26,247 bases of DNA from a virus, in IMG/VR virus record IMGVR_UViG_3300025889_000828, positions 1 to 26,247 of that record; one strand, 5' to 3'. This document shows, in pieces, positions 1-14,692 of the stretch. Below the pieces are notes generated by a model, which was not told the origin of the DNA, did no database searches, and worked only from the letters and a program-made list of their open reading frames with translations. Position 1 is the first letter of the stretch. Each line of letters starts with the position of its first letter. The position numbers and the translations under genes were made by a program.

Positions 1-918
1 CACCCAGAACGTGATCAAGAATGGCGTGATCGTCAAACGGAAATTTTGGGAGAAATGCAAGCAAGTCAGGAACATGATGCGTCATTCATCTTTTCAGGCA
101 ATACTGTTATCAGTCCAGAAATTATTGAGTTCTATCGTAAAACACATTTGAAGGAACCGATCTCGAAACAAGGATTTGACGGCAATCTTTGGGTCTGGGA
201 ATATCCAATTATTGGAAAGACGTACATTGTTTCCGCTGACGTTGCCCGTGGGGATGGAGAAGACTATTCCACCCTCCATGTGATTGATAGTGAACGATCC
301 CTTCAAGTAGCAGAGTACAAGGGAAAAATACCCACTAAGGAATTTGGGAATCTCATGGTGTCGGTTGCCACCGAATATAATGATGCACTATTAATACCCG
401 ATAATTCATCGATTGGGTGGAGTGCGATTCAACAAGTTATTGATCGGGGATATAAAAATCTATTTTATATGTCCTCAGACTTACAATATGTGGACGTAGA
501 GCACCAAATAACGAACCGCAGTATCATGTCCGAACGAAACCTCAAGCCGGGGTTTACGGTGTCTATGCGGACACGCCCGCTCGTTATAGCTAAGTTGGAA
601 GAGTATATGCGGGAAAACGCTATCACGGTTCAATCCTCACGAACTATAACGGAATTTGAGACATTTATTTGGAAAAATGGGAAGGCTGAGGCATTATCAG
701 GTTATAATGACGATTTGGTATTTGCGTTGGGCATCGGGTTATGGGTTCGAGATACCGCACTTCGATTACGTCAACAGGGTATTGAACTTACAAAGTTTGC
801 ATTAGAAAGAGCCTCATATAACACCATTCCCATTGCAATTAAACAAGGAATTCAAGACAATCCATATGATATGCCCGTTGGGGGAAACCAGACGGAAGAT
901 ATTCGATGGTTATTGTGA
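1..918 (+). CDS. 17: Terminase large subunit (gp17-like), C-terminal nuclease part, 5'-truncated
   Basis: The reading frame is open from the first base, so the N-terminal ATPase half lies upstream; the first ATG (55) and TTG (46) are internal. This is the C-terminal third of the DNA-packaging motor, whose RNase H-like nuclease cuts concatemeric DNA at the portal. Nuclease acids are visible: SADVARG with Asp at 238-240 (T4 D401), IPDNSSIG with Asp at 400-402 where T4 has Glu458, and YNDDLV with Asp codons at 709 and 712 (T4 D542). The FSGNTVI segment after the ATPase-nuclease linker is also typical of gp17. The Glu-to-Asp change keeps the acid. No small terminase (gp16) gene is seen. Identity is firm from motifs and from portal, protease and capsid genes downstream. 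Confidence 0.95.
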   Translation, partial: HPERDQEWRDRQTEILGEMQASQEHDASFIFSGNTVISPEIIEFYRKTHLKEPISKQGFDGNLWVWEYPIIGKTYIVSADVARGDGEDYSTLHVIDSERSLQVAEYKGKIPTKEFGNLMVSVATEYNDALLIPDNSSIGWSAIQQVIDRGYKNLFYMSSDLQYVDVEHQITNRSIMSERNLKPGFTVSMRTRPLVIAKLEEYMRENAITVQSSRTITEFETFIWKNGKAEALSGYNDDLVFALGIGLWVRDTALRLRQQGIELTKFALERASYNTIPIAIKQGIQDNPYDMPVGGNQTEDIRWLL

Positions 919-2636: not shown

Positions 2637-2944
2637 TCCGTTTGATGGATATCATTCTTGACGAAGAATACAAAACGAAGGGTAACCTTGGTAAATGGCT
2701 CCGTCAGAAGTGGGTGGATATTTCTCGTAAAGACCCCAAGACAGGAAAACATCCTCCGTGTGGGGCATCGGCGGGAAAGAAGGAACGAAAAGGTGGTTCA
2801 GCAAAATATCCTAAGTGTCGTCCCGCACGTTCGGCGGCAGCAATGAGTAAAGGTGAAAAACGATCCGCCGTAACCAGAAAACGAAAAGCAGGCAATCCCG
2901 GTGGAAAACCAACGATGGTCGCAACATTTAAACGGAGTAAATGA
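2633..2944 (+). CDS. Basic Cys/Lys-rich phage protein (KHPPCG...YPKCRPA module)
   Basis: A 103-aa protein from the ATG at 2633, which overlaps the previous stop (ATGA) and has AAGGAAAG just upstream; an in-frame ATG at 2615 lies deep in the previous gene and is less likely. The first 11 residues, MIRLMDIILDE, form a short hydrophobic segment ending in LDE, a candidate prohead-protease site. The remainder is very basic: KWVDISRKDPKTGKHPPCG, then YPKCRPARSAAAMSKGEKRSAVTRKRK. This PPCG/YPKC/AAAMS pattern is widespread in phage structural clusters but has no assigned function I know of. A nucleic-acid-binding or internal head role fits the charge, as inference only. Confidence 0.75.
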   Translation: MIRLMDIILDEEYKTKGNLGKWLRQKWVDISRKDPKTGKHPPCGASAGKKERKGGSAKYPKCRPARSAAAMSKGEKRSAVTRKRKAGNPGGKPTMVATFKRSK

Positions 2945-3309
2945 TAATGTATTTCCTTACTGAACTAACATGGCCGCAATTTAAGCAATTACCACACATT
3001 AAAAAACTGGATTCGTACCAACAACAGATTCGGTATCATCAATATTTAAATGAAATTGCACAACAAAATGCAATAATGTATGCTCAACATAATATGGGTA
3101 GTCCGGGTGGTGGTCATGAACCTACCCCAACCCCATCAGTGACGCCGAGTATTAGCGCAACCCCAAGTGTCACGCCATCAATTAGTATAACTCCATCAGT
3201 AACGCCAAGTGTCACACCAAGTATTTCAATCAGTCCAAGTATCACACCGTCAGTAACGCCAAGTATTAGTGTTACTCCTTCGGTTACTCCAAGTCCAAGT
3301 GGCGTTTAA
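2941..3309 (+). CDS. Thr/Pro/Ser tandem-repeat protein
   Basis: A 122-aa protein whose ATG (2941) overlaps the previous TGA; a second in-frame ATG at 2947 would shorten it by two residues. Residues 1-55 are a helical Gln/His-rich head (FLTELTWPQFKQLPHIKKLD...). From about residue 60 the protein is a nearly pure repeat of PSVTPSIS-type units, about 60 residues with no charged residues, ending PSPSGV. Such stretches are extended, disordered and rich in hydroxyl side chains, as in linkers or surface brushes. The head domain has LTE near its start (residues 6-8 from 2941). Function is unknown. Confidence 0.7.
   Translation: MIMYFLTELTWPQFKQLPHIKKLDSYQQQIRYHQYLNEIAQQNAIMYAQHNMGSPGGGHEPTPTPSVTPSISATPSVTPSISITPSVTPSVTPSISISPSITPSVTPSISVTPSVTPSPSGV
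3121..3303 (+). repeat. In-frame tandem repeats encoding TPSVTPSIS-type units
   Basis: About 180 bases of short degenerate repeats of 12-24 bases. Codons for Pro, Ser and Thr vary between copies (TCA/AGT, ACG/ACA/ACT), so the peptide is kept while the DNA diverges. This argues for selection on protein rather than a recent slippage expansion. Confidence 0.8.
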
Positions 3310-3799: not shown

Positions 3800-4123
3800 A
3801 TGAGCAAACACCATAAGCGTGTCCGTATAAAGTATCGTGAATTGTATGAAGCGCATTATGGAGAAATACCTGAAGGTTATCAAATTCATCACATTGATGG
3901 GAACCCGTATAACAACGACATTTCAAACTTGATGGCAGTGTCACCCGATGATCATGTGAAACTGCACGACTACCAGAAGAAACATCATGTTAAGACTAAA
4001 AGACCTGTTGGGCGAAGGAAACACCCCTACAAAAACATCAAAAAACGAGGTTCCCTACAAAAGCGGAGATACCTATATAAGTCGGGAAGAGGCATTAAAA
4101 ATTCACGACCAAATGGGGTATAA
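3800..4123 (+). CDS. HNH endonuclease, C-terminus overlapping the next gene
   Basis: A 107-aa protein with an HNH fold: IPEGYQIHHIDGNPYNND (His30-His31, Asp33, Asn35, Asn38/39), ISNL (Asn43) and a final metal-ligand His52. HNH enzymes cut DNA with a single metal ion; free-standing ones in T4-like phages are often homing endonucleases. The core ends near residue 56. From residue 63 to the stop the frame runs for 137 bases inside the next gene, giving a Lys/Arg-rich tail that may be a by-product of the overlap. No zinc-finger or NUMOD domain is seen. The gene sits among small head-region genes, so insertion by transfer is plausible. Confidence 0.82.
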   Translation: MSKHHKRVRIKYRELYEAHYGEIPEGYQIHHIDGNPYNNDISNLMAVSPDDHVKLHDYQKKHHVKTKRPVGRRKHPYKNIKKRGSLQKRRYLYKSGRGIKNSRPNGV

Positions 4124-5198: not shown

Positions 5199-7103
5199 AT
5201 GGCAGATAATAGTATTTTTGGGCGGTTAAAGAAACTTTTTTCTACTAACACCGTTGTTCGAAATGTTGGTGGAAAAAGACTCCGCATTGCAGATACCGAT
5301 CAAATCCAATCGTTTGTCAACAGACGAGGTGTTGATCGGTATCACCGTGTCTACCAATCTGCGACAGGTGGATATGGTTCACATCATGGACGATATGAAG
5401 CGGCTGCAGCATTCCAAGGTGCGCGACTTCAATTGTTCCGTGATTATGACATGATGGACAACGATCCGATCATCGCATCAGTGTTGGACATTTACGCCGA
5501 CGAAAGTACTGTGAAGGATGAATTCAATCGCATTCTCAGTATCAAAACAAACAATACACAAATTCAAGAAATTCTCCACAATTTGTTTTATGATATTTTG
5601 AATGTTGAATTCAATCTCTGGCCGTGGATCAGAAACATGGCAAAATACGGAGACTTCTTTTTGTATCTTGATATTGATCCTGAATATGGCGTGGTCAATG
5701 TCATCCCTCTTTCTGTATATGAAACCATTCGTGTAGAAGGTGAAGAACCGGGTAATCCGTTCTCTGTTCGATTTAGTATTCAAAATGACTTCCTCAATCT
5801 TGGAAAGAAAGAATTTGATAATTACGAAATTGCACATTTCCGCATGTTAGCAGATACGAACTTCCTTCCGTATGGTAAAGCCATGATTGAAGGTGGTCGT
5901 CGTGTGTGGAAGCAACTCCAATTGATGGAAGACGCCATGTTGGTCCATCGTATCATGCGAGCACCAGACAAACGGAAGTTCAAGATTGATATCGGTAATA
6001 TTCCGCCAAATGAAGTGGATACGTACATGCAACGGATCATTGATCGTATGAAGAAAACACCGTTGGTTGATCCATCGACGGGTGATTATAATCTTCGATA
6101 TAATATGATGAATATTACTGAGGATTTTTATCTTCCTGTTCGCGGCAAAGACGCCGGAACCGACATCGAAACGATGCAAGGGCTTCAATTCAATGCCATC
6201 GAAGACGTTGAATATCTTAGAAAAAAGTTAATGGCAGCATTTAAAGTACCAAAGTCGTTTATTGGATATGAAGAAGATCTCAATGGTAAGGCAACTCTGG
6301 CGGCACAAGACGTTCGATTTGCCAGAACCATTGAACGTATTCAACGGATCATGATTTCGGAATTAACCAAGATTGCGATTATCCACTTATACGTTCAAGG
6401 ATTTACCGATGAAAATTTGATCAATTTTGAATTGTCATTAGCCAATCCATCAACGTTATATGAACAAGAACGATTGAATATTTGGAAGGAAAAGTTTAGT
6501 TTGGCTCAACAAATGGCAAGTGCACAACCCGTTCTTCTTTCTCAAGATTGGATTTATAATCATATTATGGAAATGTCTGATGAGGAAATTGAAGAACAAC
6601 GGAAAAAGATTGATGAAGATACGCAACGAATACAGCAACAACAGATGGCACAGCAAGGTGGTACGATGGGTGGCGCACCCGGTGCAGCACCAATGGCTGG
6701 AACGCCTCCTGAAGGAATACCGCCTGAAGGAGAACAACTACCACCCGAAGGTGAGGAACCTGCTCCTGAGGGAGAACCACCATCCGACGAAGAACAACAA
6801 ATTGACGATGTAGATCAAATTCTCGCTAGTCTGGAAGATATTCCCGAAGATGAGGACGAAGAATTAGAAGAAGCATTGTTCAAAAACAAAGGTGGCCGAC
6901 CCCGCGAAGGCGTCAAATTTGGATCAGATAAGCATCCGTTGGGCCGAGATCCATTGGGTCATAAAGAAAACCGCAAAGCATTAAAACGCAGTTTATCGGG
7001 GGAAACCAGAGACTTTCTCAAGAAACTTTCAACAAAACGTGATAGTCAATATAAACAAATTATCAGTGAAATTGTTCTAACTGACGATAAAATCGACGGT
7101 TAG
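5199..7103 (+). CDS. 20: Portal protein (gp20-like)
   Basis: A 634-aa portal vertex protein. Gp20 forms the dodecameric ring through which DNA is packaged and to which the neck attaches. Typical portal features are visible: MADNSIFGRLKKLF at the start, DYDMMDNDPIIASVLDIYAD (about residues 87-106), IPLSVYETIRVEG, HFRMLADTNFLPYGKAMIEG, and VEYLRKKLMAAFKVPKSFIG followed by GKATLAAQDVRFARTIERIQ. It is about 110 residues longer than T4 gp20 (524). The extra length is a C-terminal tail from about residue 475: Gln-rich, then PPEGE repeats, then an acidic stretch, then a basic segment (GGRPREGVKFG, DKHPLGRDPLGHKENRKALK) that I also recall in aquatic phage portals. Confidence 0.96.
   Translation: MADNSIFGRLKKLFSTNTVVRNVGGKRLRIADTDQIQSFVNRRGVDRYHRVYQSATGGYGSHHGRYEAAAAFQGARLQLFRDYDMMDNDPIIASVLDIYADESTVKDEFNRILSIKTNNTQIQEILHNLFYDILNVEFNLWPWIRNMAKYGDFFLYLDIDPEYGVVNVIPLSVYETIRVEGEEPGNPFSVRFSIQNDFLNLGKKEFDNYEIAHFRMLADTNFLPYGKAMIEGGRRVWKQLQLMEDAMLVHRIMRAPDKRKFKIDIGNIPPNEVDTYMQRIIDRMKKTPLVDPSTGDYNLRYNMMNITEDFYLPVRGKDAGTDIETMQGLQFNAIEDVEYLRKKLMAAFKVPKSFIGYEEDLNGKATLAAQDVRFARTIERIQRIMISELTKIAIIHLYVQGFTDENLINFELSLANPSTLYEQERLNIWKEKFSLAQQMASAQPVLLSQDWIYNHIMEMSDEEIEEQRKKIDEDTQRIQQQQMAQQGGTMGGAPGAAPMAGTPPEGIPPEGEQLPPEGEEPAPEGEPPSDEEQQIDDVDQILASLEDIPEDEDEELEEALFKNKGGRPREGVKFGSDKHPLGRDPLGHKENRKALKRSLSGETRDFLKKLSTKRDSQYKQIISEIVLTDDKIDG
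6703..6780 (+). repeat. PPEGE-type tandem repeats in the portal C-terminal tail
   Basis: Five degenerate copies of a unit encoding (P/A)PEG(E/I) in the portal gene, within a Gln/Gly/Pro-rich disordered tail that T4 gp20 lacks. Codons differ between copies. Confidence 0.7.
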
Positions 7104-8558: not shown

Positions 8559-9146
8559 ATGTCCAAACTCTTGTGTGAATATACCGAACTTCATTACAAT
8601 AAAGATCTTTTAGTTGAATCACTTGATGGATCAAAGCCATTGATTCTTCGAAATGTAATCTTACAACGTGCTAATGCCAAGAATCAAAATGGTCGGGTAT
8701 ACCCAAAAGAAATCTTGATGCGTGAAGCAAATATCTACAAGCAAAACTTTGTTGCACAACGCCGGGCACTGGGTGAACTGGACCATCCAGAATCTCCCGT
8801 GGTCAACTTAAAAAATGTATGCTGCAATGTCACGGAACTATGGACGGAAGGTGATGATGTCAAGGGTACCATTGAAATCTTGACGACTCCAACCGGTAAT
8901 ATCGTCAAAGAATTGATTCGCAACAATATCAAATTGGGTGTGTCGTCACGAGGAATGGGATCGGTTCGACAAATTGGTGAAGGAACAGTGGAAGTGGATG
9001 AGGATTTCTCTCTGATCTGCTTTGACATTGTGTCTAATCCTTCAACGATTGGTGCGTTCATTACGGAAAATACGACACCAACGATTGTCACTCCATATGA
9101 CAATATTGATAAACTAATCTATGACTTTTTAAGTGAGGTTAAATAA
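8559..9146 (+). CDS. 21: Prohead core protease (gp21-like)
   Basis: A 195-aa serine protease of the herpesvirus-assemblin-like prohead protease fold (T4 gp21, 212 aa). It acts inside the prohead, cleaving scaffold and capsid proteins after (L/I)xE and then itself. Catalytic residues are visible: His76 in GELDHPES, and the nucleophile Ser129 or Ser130 in KLGVSSRGMGS. The N-terminal QRANAKNQNGRVYP is a hallmark of the family. C-terminal ICFDIVSNPSTIGAFI is also typical. Start codon is the ATG directly after the previous stop. The scaffold and capsid genes downstream encode its expected substrates. Confidence 0.96.
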   Translation: MSKLLCEYTELHYNKDLLVESLDGSKPLILRNVILQRANAKNQNGRVYPKEILMREANIYKQNFVAQRRALGELDHPESPVVNLKNVCCNVTELWTEGDDVKGTIEILTTPTGNIVKELIRNNIKLGVSSRGMGSVRQIGEGTVEVDEDFSLICFDIVSNPSTIGAFITENTTPTIVTPYDNIDKLIYDFLSEVK

Positions 9147-9792: not shown

Positions 9793-10503
9793 ATGGGCAA
9801 GACACTCTTCATCAGTGACTTTGATGATACTCTTGCTGAAACGGATGCCAAGATTTATTTGACCCGTGACGGCAAACGATTTGAGATGACTCCCGCAGAA
9901 TATGCAGTGTATCAAGAAGAACCGGGAGATCAATTCGATTTCTCTGATTTTGACAAACTGATCAACCCCCGTCCCATCAAACGATTCGTCAGGATGTTAC
10001 AAAACGCATCAGATAATCCCAAGGTGGACAAGGTAGTTATTTTGACTGCACGTGGTCATACCCGTCCCGTGGCACAATTTCTCAAGAAGTTTGGCATTAC
10101 GGGACGGATTACGATTGCGGCATTGGGGAGCAGTGATCCAGATCGTAAAGCACGTTACGTCGAAAAACACATTGAACAAGGATTTGATCGGATTGCGTTT
10201 GTTGATGATTCTCCAAAAAATGTGGAGGCAGTTGACAAGTTAAAGACCAAATATCCAGAAGTCAAATTACTGGTACATCAAGCAAAAGAAACAGCAGAAG
10301 AACCAGAAAGTCCCGAAACACCAGCCGAAGATAAAAATAAAATTGCTAAAACTTCATTGGAAAAGCAAATTGATACTATGGTGATACGTAATCCAGAAAC
10401 CAAACGGGACATCAGAATGAAAACGGCGTTATCGTATGACAAACAACATCCCGCCTATCGTGCAGCAATGCAAACACTTCAAGGGTTACGCAAGAACACT
10501 TAA
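9793..10503 (+). CDS. HAD-superfamily phosphatase-fold protein with C-terminal phage module
   Basis: A 236-aa protein. HAD motifs are complete: motif I FISDFDDTL with nucleophile Asp9 and acid Asp11, motif II ILTARG (Thr85), a motif III Lys near DPDRKARYV (about 119), and motif IV FVDDSPKN (Asp138-Asp139). Such enzymes remove phosphate from small molecules or nucleic-acid ends; in T4 a HAD domain forms the 3'-phosphatase half of PseT, but no kinase P-loop is present here. After a Glu/Pro linker (about 166-185), residues about 195-236 (VIRNPETKRDIRMKTALSYD then HPAYRAAM) form a module I recall at the ends of other phage proteins. Substrate is unknown. An enzyme in the middle of a head-assembly operon is notable. 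Confidence 0.85.
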   Translation: MGKTLFISDFDDTLAETDAKIYLTRDGKRFEMTPAEYAVYQEEPGDQFDFSDFDKLINPRPIKRFVRMLQNASDNPKVDKVVILTARGHTRPVAQFLKKFGITGRITIAALGSSDPDRKARYVEKHIEQGFDRIAFVDDSPKNVEAVDKLKTKYPEVKLLVHQAKETAEEPESPETPAEDKNKIAKTSLEKQIDTMVIRNPETKRDIRMKTALSYDKQHPAYRAAMQTLQGLRKNT

Positions 10504-10515
10504 ACGGTATTTTGT

Positions 10516-10893
10516 ATGTCAAGAAACAGTAATCTAGCGGTGAGTGATGCGCAAAAAGAAGATGAATTGATTGACCGCATTAGTAAAAAAGACATGACGT
10601 TTCGTGAATTGTTTTTCCGGTTATTCATGACCAGAGATGACAATCTAGATTTATTACAATTCATGTTCCTTATCATGATCATCTTCTTTATCGTGTCGTT
10701 TTCATTGGTCGGAATGGGAAAATGGACGGTAACAACATCCGCATGGACAATGTTCGGGTCAGTCTTTGCAACCCTCGCAATCATGGGCGCACCCACGTGG
10801 ATTGCACAATTACTGGCAGCTAGTAACAAAAAGAAACATCACTCCTATGACATGGGAGTAGACGATATCAACACTTCAGACGAAACAGGTTAA
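10516..10893 (+). CDS. Two-span membrane protein
   Basis: A 125-aa protein with a charged, helical N-terminus (1-45), then two hydrophobic segments: about residues 46-67 (LLQFMFLIMIIFFIVSFSLV) and 75-100 (AWTMFGSVFATLAIMGAPTW). The tail is basic then acidic (KKKHHSYDMGVDDINTSDET). The two-helix hairpin with charged ends is compatible with a class II holin or another inner-membrane phage protein, but no lysis gene is adjacent, so the function is open. No ribosome binding site is obvious before the ATG. The bS21 gene follows three bases after the stop, suggesting co-expression. Confidence 0.7.
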   Translation: MSRNSNLAVSDAQKEDELIDRISKKDMTFRELFFRLFMTRDDNLDLLQFMFLIMIIFFIVSFSLVGMGKWTVTTSAWTMFGSVFATLAIMGAPTWIAQLLAASNKKKHHSYDMGVDDINTSDETG

Positions 10894-10896
10894 ATT

Positions 10897-11112
10897 ATGT
10901 ATGTTAAGGTTAATGACGGGAAAGACGATTTAAACAAAGCATTACGACAATTCACCAGAATGGTCAAAAAGTCGGAAATCATGCAAGAATTGAAACGGCG
11001 TGAATTTTTTCTCAAGCCGTCCAAGAAACGTCAATTCAAACGTGAAGAAGCAATTCGACGCCGGAAACGGGAAGAAAGACGGGTCGCCCGTCAAAATCGC
11101 TACTCAGAGTGA
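10897..11112 (+). CDS. rpsU: Phage-encoded ribosomal protein bS21
   Basis: A 71-aa protein, the same length as E. coli bS21, a small-subunit protein at the mRNA exit/anti-Shine-Dalgarno region that is needed for efficient initiation. The family pattern is clear: V-KV-N start, DDLNKALRQFTRMVKKSEIM matching the ALR.FKR..EK.G...E segment, KRREFFLKPSKKRQFKREEA matching RRREFYEKPT..RKR..., and a basic helical end. Phage-borne bS21 genes are known from environmental phages, including pelagiphages. The likely role is replacing host bS21 in ribosomes during infection to favour phage mRNA; that is inference. It lies three bases after the membrane-protein gene and upstream of the scaffold gene. Confidence 0.9.
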   Translation: MYVKVNDGKDDLNKALRQFTRMVKKSEIMQELKRREFFLKPSKKRQFKREEAIRRRKREERRVARQNRYSE

Positions 11113-11131
11113 TTTTTTAGGAAACAACTAT

Positions 11132-11139
11132 ATATTTAT
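11132..11139 (+). promoter_or_regulatory. ATATTTAT box, putative late promoter for scaffold-capsid genes
   Basis: Located in the gap between bS21 and gp22, within TATATATTTATAATA, about 98 bases before the gp22 start. A perfect stem-loop follows at 11149-11172, so it would lie near the 5' end of the transcript. Confidence 0.5.
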
Positions 11140-11148
11140 AATAGTGAA

Positions 11149-11172
11149 ACACTAATTTCCTAGTATTAGTGT
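11149..11172 (+). promoter_or_regulatory. Perfect 8-bp stem-loop in the gp22 leader
   Basis: ACACTAAT (11149-11156) pairs fully with ATTAGTGT (11165-11172) around an 8-base loop. An A-run, not a T-run, follows, so it is not a standard terminator on this strand. If transcription starts just downstream of the ATATTTAT box at 11132, the hairpin would cap the 5' end of the gp22-gp23 mRNA. Confidence 0.5.
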
Positions 11173-11236
11173 ATAAAAAAATTCATTTATATAGCAGATT
11201 CAAATGTCTGCTTCTAATCCTACAGGAGTAACATTT

Positions 11237-12376
11237 ATGGCAGAAATTACTAACAAGCTTTTAAAACAAGCTATTGCCGATGCAGAAGCAGTTCGTGAAA
11301 CTGCTGTTGCAAACGCTAAGCTCGTTCTAGAAGAAGCAATCACTCCACAAATCAAGGACATGATTGCTCGTCGTCTTCGCGTCGAAGCCGAAATGACAAC
11401 CGAAGCAGAAGGTCACGAAGCAGCTAAGGAAGTACCACATGAAGAAGGTGAAGCAGAAGGTTCTAGTGAAATGCCAGCTGATAGTTCCGCTGTCGGCGCT
11501 GGTGACAACAAGGAACCATCTGATGCTTCATGGGATTCTTCAGAAGTCGGTGACGGTGGGGAAAACAAAGAAGACTCATCAACCGATTGGTACGATGATT
11601 GGTCAGAAAGTGACTTCGACCTCAATGAAATCATTGCAGAATTAGAAGCAGACATTGCCGCTCTTTCTGAAGGTGAAGAAGAAGAAAAGGAAGAAACAGA
11701 AGAAAAGGAAGAAGAAGGTGAAGAAGAAGTAAAGACCGAAGTTTCTCACGAAACCGAAGATTCAGACGTTCAAAAGTACGCCAAGGCACCTGTAGCTGAA
11801 GAAGAAAAGGAAGAAGAAGGTGACGCAGCAACCGGTGGCATGGAAAAGACTGTTGATATGGAAAAGAAGATGGAAGATGGTATGAAGGACGAGGAAGGTG
11901 AAGAAGAAGTTGATCTTGAAGAAATTCTTGCAGAACTTGAAGCCGAAGAAGGGGAAGCAAAAGACGACTCCGACAAAGACGAAATGGCTGCTAAACTTGC
12001 AGGACTCAAGGATGAATTGGCTCAATATCGGGAAGCAGTAAATATTCTCCGAGGCCGTTTACAAGAAGTGAACCTTCTCAATGCTAAGTTACTTTTCACC
12101 AACAAGCTCTTCAAGAAGGAAGGGTTGAACAACGAACAAAAGGTTCGTATTGTTGAATCATTTGATCGGGCAACCACAGTTCGTGAAGTCAAGCTTGTGT
12201 ATACAGCATTGGTGGAAAACCTTTCTGTAGCAGCTAAGACATTCGCAGCATCACGCAAGAAGGTTGTGGCTGAAGGACTTGCTTCAAAGGCAACTCCAAC
12301 AACCGCACCAAAGTCCGAAGTCATCGTGGAAAACACCGTGGCTAAGAGACTCCAACAACTCGCAGGCATAATCTAA
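11237..12376 (+). CDS. 22: Prohead core scaffold protein (gp22-like)
   Basis: A 379-aa protein. ATG 11237 is chosen over an in-frame ATG at 11204 because AGGAG (11224-11228) sits eight bases before it. Gp22 is the major internal scaffold, degraded by gp21 after head assembly. Support: position directly before gp23, a helical N-terminus (KLLKQAIADAEAVRETAVAN), a very long Glu/Asp-rich low-complexity middle (about residues 60-255), and a helical C-terminal domain (about 260-379; LKDELAQYREAVNILRGRLQ then ..LLFTNKLFKKEGLNNEQKVR) like T4-type gp22. It is longer than T4 gp22 (269), mainly from the acidic middle. LEE in KLVLEEAITPQ fits the protease rule. Confidence 0.92.
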   Translation: MAEITNKLLKQAIADAEAVRETAVANAKLVLEEAITPQIKDMIARRLRVEAEMTTEAEGHEAAKEVPHEEGEAEGSSEMPADSSAVGAGDNKEPSDASWDSSEVGDGGENKEDSSTDWYDDWSESDFDLNEIIAELEADIAALSEGEEEEKEETEEKEEEGEEEVKTEVSHETEDSDVQKYAKAPVAEEEKEEEGDAATGGMEKTVDMEKKMEDGMKDEEGEEEVDLEEILAELEAEEGEAKDDSDKDEMAAKLAGLKDELAQYREAVNILRGRLQEVNLLNAKLLFTNKLFKKEGLNNEQKVRIVESFDRATTVREVKLVYTALVENLSVAAKTFAASRKKVVAEGLASKATPTTAPKSEVIVENTVAKRLQQLAGII

Positions 12377-12395: not shown

Positions 12396-13970
12396 ATGTC
12401 AGATGTATCAAATTTAATTAATGAAGCCGGCTCAGCTCACCAAGTCGTCATCGAAAAGACTCGGAAGTTGGCAGCTAAGTGGGAAGATTCAGGTCTTCTC
12501 GAAGGCTTAAAGGGCTACGAAAAGCAAGGGATGGCCGTCATGCTTGAAAACCAAGCATCACAACTCTTGTCAGAAAACAGCAAGACCAACGCAGCTGGTA
12601 CCTCTGGTGAAAACTGGGCAGGTGTCGCACTTCCATTAGTCCGCAAGGTCTTCGGAAGTATCGCAGCCAAGAATTTCGTCTCAGTTCAACCAATGAACCT
12701 TCCAGCAGGTTTGGTGTTCTACATGGACTTCAAATACGGCACTACCGTAAATGGTAAGACCGCAGGCGGTTCACTCTATGGTAATGGAATTACCAGTACA
12801 GTCGGTGGTTTCGGCAATACCGATACCGGCGGTTTGTACGGCGCAGGAGCATTCGGTTATTCAATCAATGATGCAACTGCAACTGGTCTTACAGTCGCAT
12901 CTGCGTCAGTTTCATTCTCTGATGTTAACTATGACGCAAATTATGTTGATACCGCCTCATTGTTAAAGTATTCTGTAGCTACCTCATCACTTACCAACCC
13001 TGATCTTCTTGCGGCTCGGGCATATGTTCCTTCTGGATCTGGTCCTGACTTTGCAGGATTAGTGCTTCCGCAATTCACCAAGGTCGTAGGTGCTAACGTT
13101 GTCTTCGTCGTAAACAGTACAACTGCTGGTACGCTCACATCAGTTGCATACACCAAGCAACCAACTGACACCACCCGTGGTGACTTCGAAGATCGTGATG
13201 GTTCAACCGATCTTGCAATTCCACAAATTGATCTTGAACTTCGTTCAGAAACCATCGTCGCCAAGACTCGTAAGTTGAAGGCCGTTTGGTCACCTGAACT
13301 TGCTCAAGACTTGAACGCATACCACTCAGTCGATGCAGAAGCAGAATTGACCAGTATGCTTTCAGACTATGTAGCAACTGAAATCGACCTCGAAATTCTT
13401 GACATGTTGATTGCAGCAGCTCCATCAGAAACCACTGAATATTGGTCAGCTGAAATCGGCACTGTGTGGAATGGTTCGGCATTCGCCGCTTCATCTTACA
13501 CTGGTACCGCTTGGACCAACATGACTTGGTTCCAAACCCTCGGTCAGAAGATGCAAAAAGTCAGTAACCGCATCCACCAATTGACCATGCGGGGTGGTGC
13601 TAACTTCGCAGTTGTTTCACCAACCGTAGCAACCATCCTTGAAACCATCCCCGGCTTCCAAGCTGGTACCGATGGCGACAAGATGGAATTCGCAGCCGGT
13701 GTTACCAAGATTGGTTCATTCCAAAACCGTTTCACTGTCTACAAGAACCCATACATGAAGGAAAACATCGTCCTCATGGGCTTCCGTGGTTCACAATTCC
13801 TCGAAACCGGCGCAGTGTACGCTCCGTACATTCCGTTGATCATGACGCCTCTCGTCTATGATCCAAACAACTTCACTCCACGCCGGGGTGTGATGACTCG
13901 TTACGCCAAGAAGATTGTCCGTCCTGAATTCTTCGGCAAGATCTACATCGACAAGCTTTCACTCATCTAA
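12396..13970 (+). CDS. 23: Major capsid protein (gp23-like)
   Basis: A 524-aa HK97-fold shell protein (T4 gp23, 521 aa). Typical segments: GYEKQGMAVMLENQASQLLS (about residues 40-59), WAGVALPLVRKVFGSIAAKN, FVSVQPMNLPAGLVFYMDFK, LELRSETIVAKTRKLKAVWS, PELAQDLNAYHSVDAEAELT, and the C-terminal TPRRGVMTRYAKKIVRPEFF ending GKIYIDKLSLI. LSE at residues 58-60 fits the gp21 rule and aligns with the T4 propeptide cleavage (after Glu65), so the mature protein probably begins at Asn61. Codon use looks enriched in C-ending codons compared with neighbours, as expected for a very highly expressed gene; this was judged by eye. A strong terminator follows. Confidence 0.98.
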   Translation: MSDVSNLINEAGSAHQVVIEKTRKLAAKWEDSGLLEGLKGYEKQGMAVMLENQASQLLSENSKTNAAGTSGENWAGVALPLVRKVFGSIAAKNFVSVQPMNLPAGLVFYMDFKYGTTVNGKTAGGSLYGNGITSTVGGFGNTDTGGLYGAGAFGYSINDATATGLTVASASVSFSDVNYDANYVDTASLLKYSVATSSLTNPDLLAARAYVPSGSGPDFAGLVLPQFTKVVGANVVFVVNSTTAGTLTSVAYTKQPTDTTRGDFEDRDGSTDLAIPQIDLELRSETIVAKTRKLKAVWSPELAQDLNAYHSVDAEAELTSMLSDYVATEIDLEILDMLIAAAPSETTEYWSAEIGTVWNGSAFAASSYTGTAWTNMTWFQTLGQKMQKVSNRIHQLTMRGGANFAVVSPTVATILETIPGFQAGTDGDKMEFAAGVTKIGSFQNRFTVYKNPYMKENIVLMGFRGSQFLETGAVYAPYIPLIMTPLVYDPNNFTPRRGVMTRYAKKIVRPEFFGKIYIDKLSLI

Positions 13971-14047: not shown

Positions 14048-14692
14048 ATGGCAACCGTATCTGGAATATATAAAATTACCAATACCATGAATGGGCATTT
14101 CTATATCGGCAGTTCCACAAATGTTCATCGTAGAAAACAACGCCATTTTAAATATTTAAAGATAGGTTGTCATGAAAATCGACACTTACAGAATGCCTAT
14201 AACAAGTATGGTGAAGGAGCGTTTACATTTGAAATCGTTACAACGGTAGCAAAGGATCATCTGCTTCAGGAAGAACAATCACTGTTAGATCAGCATTTCG
14301 GTCAACCATATTTCTATAATATTTGTAATATCGCTGGGAGCCCATCAGCCCCCAATCGCAAAAAGTCAATAACACATCGTAAAAGATTATCAGATTCTAT
14401 CAAACAGTATTTCTCCGAACATCCAGAACACAGAGAATTTCTTGCTGAACTTCGCCGTGGAAAACCGTTGTCGGAAACCATTAAACAAAAAATGCGTACC
14501 TCAAAGAAACGAGGAACGCAACATCACAACTCAAAATTAACCGATGATATCGTGTACCAAATAAAATTACGTTATAAACCACGGGAATGTAGCTTCGGTC
14601 AGTTGGCAAAGGAGTTTGGGGTAGACAAAAAAACTATCATCCGTATTATACATAATAAAACATGGACACACGTAACTATCAATAAACACTAG
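14048..14692 (+). CDS. Free-standing GIY-YIG homing endonuclease
   Basis: A 214-aa protein. The GIY-YIG nuclease is at residues 1-95: GIYKI (GIY 6-8), FYIGS (YIG 19-21), catalytic Arg in NVHRRKQRH (28/29), catalytic Glu in LLQEEQSLLD (75/76) and Asn91. Residues about 95-165 look like NUMOD-type DNA-contact segments (SITHRKRLSDSIKQYF, KPLSETIKQKM). A helix-turn-helix follows at about 165-210 (NSKLTDDIVYQIKLRY, FGQLAKEFGVDKKTIIRIIH). Such genes spread by cutting alleles that lack them. It sits between the capsid terminator and the neck gene, with its own AAAGGGG ribosome binding site, so it does not interrupt a gene. The gp23 gene next to it is uninterrupted. Confidence 0.92.
   Translation: MATVSGIYKITNTMNGHFYIGSSTNVHRRKQRHFKYLKIGCHENRHLQNAYNKYGEGAFTFEIVTTVAKDHLLQEEQSLLDQHFGQPYFYNICNIAGSPSAPNRKKSITHRKRLSDSIKQYFSEHPEHREFLAELRRGKPLSETIKQKMRTSKKRGTQHHNSKLTDDIVYQIKLRYKPRECSFGQLAKEFGVDKKTIIRIIHNKTWTHVTINKH

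Follow-up and report, generated by a model that had tools for sequence, protein, structure and literature searches.

Why a virus should carry a gene for a core part of the ribosome, why that gene should lie among those that build its head, and what its product does during infection are the questions raised by the 71-codon open frame (ATG to TGA) at positions 10897-11112 (+) of the DNA analysed here. This DNA, hereafter the window, is one virus record of 26,247 bases (IMGVR_UViG_3300025889_000828) and holds the head and tail cassette of a T4-like myovirus, consisting of a TerL fragment, gp20 portal, S77 protease, bS21, a scaffold-like gene, gp23 capsid, sheath, tail tube and tail proteins. The tail tube assignment is a weak match and the tail proteins are long and repetitive. 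The features around the bS21 gene are as follows.

1-918 (+), large terminase fragment, cut at the window edge (PHROG terminase matches)
5199-7103 (+), portal protein gp20 (Pfam PF07230, E=1.4e-70)
8559-9146 (+), prohead protease, S77 (Pfam PF03420, E=3.9e-28)
10516-10893 (+), 125-aa ORF with hydrophobic stretches, without a family match
10897-11112 (+), bS21 gene, 71 aa (Pfam, TIGRFAM, PHROG and PDB sequence matches, structure model, purifying selection)
11129-11145 (+), promoter-like motif TATATATTTATAATAGT, conserved in 20 aligned leaders (promoter role inferred)
11149-11172 (+), hairpin 1 of the scaffold leader (covariation)
11193-11212 (+), hairpin 2 of the scaffold leader, holding the likely false start ATG 11204 (covariation)
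11224-11228 (+), AGGAG Shine-Dalgarno (SD) sequence of the scaffold gene, conserved in the aligned leaders (dG -6.9 kcal/mol)
11237-12376 (+), scaffold-like gene in gp22 position, with an acidic product, between protease and gp23 and named by position
12396-13970 (+), major capsid protein gp23 (Pfam PF07068, E=2e-73)

The neighbours given in a preliminary description of the locus, scaffold and capsid genes downstream, were correctly named, a protease gene lies upstream, and the product of the scaffold-like gene gave no match in Pfam and PHROG searches. Genes for homing-type endonucleases (HNH and GIY-YIG) are found within the structural cassette at 3800-4123 and 14048-14692, the latter directly after the capsid gene, where most relatives have none. 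An ORF between protease and bS21 (9793-10503) shows a weak PHROG match to polynucleotide kinase (E 9e-8), probably to the phosphatase-like half, and the product of the ORF at 2941-3309 ends in a long Thr/Ser/Pro repeat (TPSVTPSISATPSVTPS...) and is possibly a surface-exposed virion protein.

The 71-aa product had been described as bS21, and a profile search was named beforehand as the test that could refute this. The scores exceeded the cut-offs of both Pfam (PF01165, E=2.6e-14, 53.1 bits with a cut-off of 27) and TIGRFAM (TIGR00030 S21p, E=1.4e-11, 44 bits with a cut-off of 28.95). The protein also matches PHROG 21469 'ribosomal protein S21', and bS21 chains in the PDB align with it up to about residue 66 (Borreliella 8fmw_U, E=9e-8; E. 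coli bS21). When a profile was built from nine sequences of the phage clade described below, only bS21 chains were among the matches. The AlphaFold2 model (mean pLDDT 86, pTM 0.44) has helices at 12-26, 28-36 and 41-70, corresponding to the helical fold of bS21, and the top Foldseek matches of this model were the E. coli and Psychrobacter bS21 chains (probability 1.0, E 0.014, an E-value expected at such a short chain length). The identification was thereby upheld. The family match was said to extend across the length of the protein, which holds for residues 4-56, covered by the Pfam profile, and not for the basic tail beyond them.

Two scans of IMG/VR yielded, besides four distant relatives, 32 near ones with 65-100% identity in their best segment. 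In all 32 related viral contigs, several of which are near-identical, the first recognised gene downstream of bS21 is that for the scaffold, and the position of bS21 upstream of the scaffold gene is fixed across this clade of T4-like phages, in agreement with the earlier placement of a phage-borne bS21 in the head-assembly cluster. The gene preceding bS21 differs among the contigs; near relatives with long enough contigs show the order portal, two ORFs, protease, variable small genes, bS21, scaffold and capsid. Because the 125-aa ORF upstream of bS21 occurs only in the two closest contigs, the fixed partner of bS21 is the downstream scaffold gene. A bS21 ORF upstream of a scaffold-like gene is also found in the uncultured huge phage LR756508, and Flavobacterium phage immuto, with a capsid protein 53% identical to that of the window, has no bS21.

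This synteny refutes the notion that a host rpsU gene was mis-assembled into phage DNA, to which we assign a negligible probability. Over 30 contigs, drawn from different samples in IMG/VR, share this gene order, the genome of the cultured Microcystis phage Mel-JY01 has RpsU in this region, a first scan of genome contigs showed no cellular relative with the core motifs of the clade, and nothing was found in favour of an artefact. Four unannotated and mostly short GenBank records labelled as Listeria, Staphylococcus or Enterococcus phage (OR847736, OR849273, OR850381 and OR846595) hold a Bacillota-like bS21, which we infer to be host rpsU in phage assemblies and not a phage gene. Within the clade, a tmRNA gene (Rfam RF00023, 128 bits, tag GNYNLALAA) lies at 2782-3122 (-) of contig IMGVR_UViG_3300031857_000028; it is a second gene related to translation and a possible clue to the host.

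Pairwise comparison of bS21 within the clade gave pN values of 0.01-0.22 versus pS values of 0.43-1.0, with synonymous sites near saturation in most pairs, and these values indicate strong purifying selection on the protein. bS21 is present as a single copy in the 17 records, of those checked, that carry it. The best explanation is that the window ORF encodes a functional viral bS21, for which family, copy number, selection and position are read from the sequence and the fold is predicted by the model.

The bS21 gene begins 3 nt past the stop of the upstream 125-aa ORF and is separated from the likely start codon of the scaffold gene by 124 nt. This stretch contains the promoter-like TATATATTTATAATAG, two hairpins and the AGGAG SD, all conserved in an alignment of 20 leaders, and the motif core TATATTTATA recurs at 947 and 19937, ahead of other plus strand genes. 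The hairpin pairs are kept in 91.7% of the cells of the alignment versus 24-55% when the pairing is slid, and seven pairs change on both sides, a level reached in none of 500 shuffles, in statistics which control only partly for the relatedness of the rows. No known family was found in an Rfam search of the window, scaffold leader included. Since the AGGAG SD lies at 11224-11228 and ATG 11204 is inside a conserved hairpin, the scaffold gene almost certainly starts at 11237. The scaffold-capsid transcript would thus have a late promoter and a structured 5' leader, and the leader is possibly a 5' stabiliser of this mRNA. The short distance to the upstream stop, together with a separate promoter-like motif and leader for the scaffold gene, suggests that bS21 is probably the last gene of the upstream portal/protease transcript and not the head of the capsid transcript; at the end of that unit it is probably still transcribed late. 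The suggestion that bS21 is made with late proteins is therefore to be taken with caution, since it probably does not share a transcript with scaffold and capsid. The conserved leader separating bS21 from the scaffold gene is a new detail.

As conserved and covarying hairpins adjoin bS21, an extra-ribosomal role could be envisaged in which bS21 binds the hairpin leader downstream of its own gene for autogenous or scaffold regulation. This is highly unlikely, as phage immuto has the same promoter-like motif and two hairpins without having bS21, and the leader was rejected as a bS21 target on this ground. The hairpin sequences of immuto are unrelated to those of the clade and its leader is without SD. 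The same layout was seen in Mel-JY01 and in contigs L036/L037 by eye and by single-sequence folding, with a whole-leader fold of Mel-JY01 that favours a different pairing. Marine relatives also show the layout (11129-11239 in the window) with unrelated hairpin sequences.

In Bacteroidota, Tyr54 of bS21 helps to hide the anti-SD and ribosomes ignore the SD (PMC9723584; PMC9976891). The bS21 of the window and its clade has Arg at position 54 (F. johnsoniae numbering, assigned by ungapped alignment through K40-P41-S42 to A52) and lacks the aromatic residue; a F. johnsoniae-like bS21 query served as a search probe only. Anti-SD pairing of the clade genes has a mean of -4.5 kcal/mol versus a background of -1.7 kcal/mol, and SD use is genome-wide in three large clade contigs, in which head-block SDs somewhat exceed the others in strength (p 0.03, 0.11 and 0.14). 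The scaffold and capsid genes have AGGAG SDs that are among the stronger ones of the window. No SD signal was detected in immuto or in a contig with a Tyr54-type bS21 (G018). Because of Arg54 and the genome-wide SDs, the host is probably an SD-reading bacterium rather than an SD-blind member of the Bacteroidota.

The phylogeny of bS21, proposed earlier as a pointer to the host, did not serve this purpose. A first scan of genome contigs returned no cellular bS21 relative with the core motifs of the clade; a second returned 80 cellular matches, a set biased by the search motif, with 34-52% identity and mostly from Bacillota and Spirochaetota, with some from Myxococcota and Pseudomonadota. These cellular proteins have the family and the core residues R35, K40 and P41 in common with the window bS21, and in the tree the phage clade is a separate group (support 98/95) on a long stem, from which no host can be named. 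A search for photosystem genes as a host clue showed that PF00124 is absent from 13 records, and both Flavobacterium and Microcystis occur as hosts among the nearest cultured relatives.

Virus-borne bS21 in environmental phages had been mentioned as known, which is correct: it was described in 2019 (Mizuno et al., 2019; PMC6375957), and its placement among head genes and late expression were reported in 2022 (Chen et al., 2022; PMC9723584). The lake Bacteroidetes myoviruses of Chen et al. (2022) are large T4-related phages and resemble the window in that bS21 lies in the TerL/portal/protease/capsid region, only a few genes away from these markers; these authors hypothesized that phage bS21 is substituted into host ribosomes late in infection. 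The lake phages encode bS21 and their structural genes on opposite strands and have an aromatic residue at 54, whereas the window and its relatives have bS21 on the same strand and the window has Arg54. The phages of the clade also use SD, unlike the expectation for a Bacteroidota host in clades a-e, the criterion applied in the present analysis; thus, none of the three features of clades a-e (opposite strand, aromatic residue at 54, genes without SD) is found in the window phage. In Mel-JY01 (PP395634) the annotated RpsU follows the prohead protease and precedes scaffold and capsid on the same strand, as in the window, and the capsid and sheath proteins are 51% and 46% identical to those of the window; its RpsU is only remotely like the window bS21 (phmmer E=1e-6, small set) and, unlike in the window, its gene is set apart from that for the scaffold by two ORFs. 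Pelagibacter phage HTVC008M is likewise a T4-like myovirus with bS21; this protein resembles that of its host (54%; PMC6375957), and its gene, unlike that of the window, lies at a distance of about 17 kb from the capsid gene (91.2 versus 74.4 kb). The literature gave nothing further on Mel-JY01, or on SD use by phages with bS21, beyond PMC9723584, PMC6375957 and PMC9976891. Since reports from 2019-2022 already cover head-gene placement, late transcription and the ribosome-substitution hypothesis, the window bS21 is a further instance and not a new category, and the idea that phage bS21 steers ribosomes to late messages is likewise already published. Strand, missing aromatic residue and SD use set it apart from the published cases as a well-defined further lineage.

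With regard to mechanism, bS21 is a ribosomal protein that joins late and is exchangeable. On balance, we lean towards a functional phage copy that would be transcribed late, compete with host bS21 and give preference to phage late mRNAs. The gene would be transcribed at the end of the portal/protease unit, and its product would vie with the host protein for the exchangeable 30S platform site beside the 16S 3' end; 30S subunits carrying phage bS21 would then initiate well on late mRNAs with strong SDs, such as those of scaffold and capsid, and host messages would lose. In the lake phages, phage bS21 is transcribed with late structural genes (PMC9723584), and incorporation into E. coli 70S ribosomes was shown for the HTVC008M protein (PMC6375957). 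In an in vitro assay with E. coli components, activity dropped to about 5% when the ribosomes contained this protein (PMC6375957), a loss that would fit a phage bS21 which impairs host-type initiation and shuts down host translation, with other factors helping the phage mRNAs. That assay used a foreign ribosome, and judging from its position the gene would be badly timed for host shut-off, which makes such poisoning improbable.

Against the favoured reading speak the low in vitro activity of ribosomes with HTVC008M bS21, the SDs of the clade, which are genome-wide and not restricted to late genes, and the related phage immuto, which has no bS21. With genome-wide SDs there is no coded contrast between early and late genes for bS21 to act on. 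They agree with a possible, less probable account in which phage bS21 keeps 30S subunits complete once host rpsU expression stops and leaves mRNA preference unchanged. This account needs the same parts as the selective one, including a late-joining and exchangeable protein, but plain supply would not require a protein that forms its own clade and is only 34-52% identical to the nearest cellular bS21 found. From the analysis as a whole, the role of the phage protein would most likely be the replacement of host bS21 on the 30S subunit late in infection, with or without a preference for phage mRNAs.

A further reading would be that in some T4-like phages bS21 rewires a ribosome which is SD-blind or reads SDs weakly towards SD-marked late structural genes. 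If true, this would be a translational switch that is coded in the sequence and that a ribosomal protein carries, with SD-less early genes and host genes passed over. Such a switch would predict the SD pattern of three related marine phages with bS21 (G015, G022 and G023), in which SDs are concentrated in the head-to-tube block (p 1.4e-4, 7.4e-6 and 1.6e-5, respectively); genes for head, tail and baseplate have them, whereas those for replication and other functions have hardly any, and the weak-SD half of G015 includes GroEL, DNA polymerase, ribonucleotide reductase and DnaB. The same late-gene enrichment is present in cyanophages P-SSM4 (p 7e-4) and S-ShM2 (p 0.03), both without bS21, and HTVC008M, which has bS21, does not show it. 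The control set was small, marker genes defined the block boundaries, and each open frame was assumed to start at its first ATG. A tie between bS21 and late-restricted SDs was therefore rejected, and the pattern of the three marine phages is not attributable to bS21, since the cyanophages match it. Most simply read, the pattern means that late genes with high expression have stronger SDs where hosts use SD sparingly. We regard rewiring by bS21 as very improbable, even in the three marine phages, where it would be clearest, and in the clade of the window, to which it might extend. The cyanophage control warns that strong late-gene SDs alone are no evidence of selection driven by bS21.

Among natural examples of viruses with a core part of the ribosome, phage bS21 is one of the clearest, and in the clade described here, whose phages use SD, its gene has stayed next to those for scaffold and capsid despite much divergence. 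Because these phages use SD, the published bS21 hypothesis becomes testable outside the Bacteroidota.
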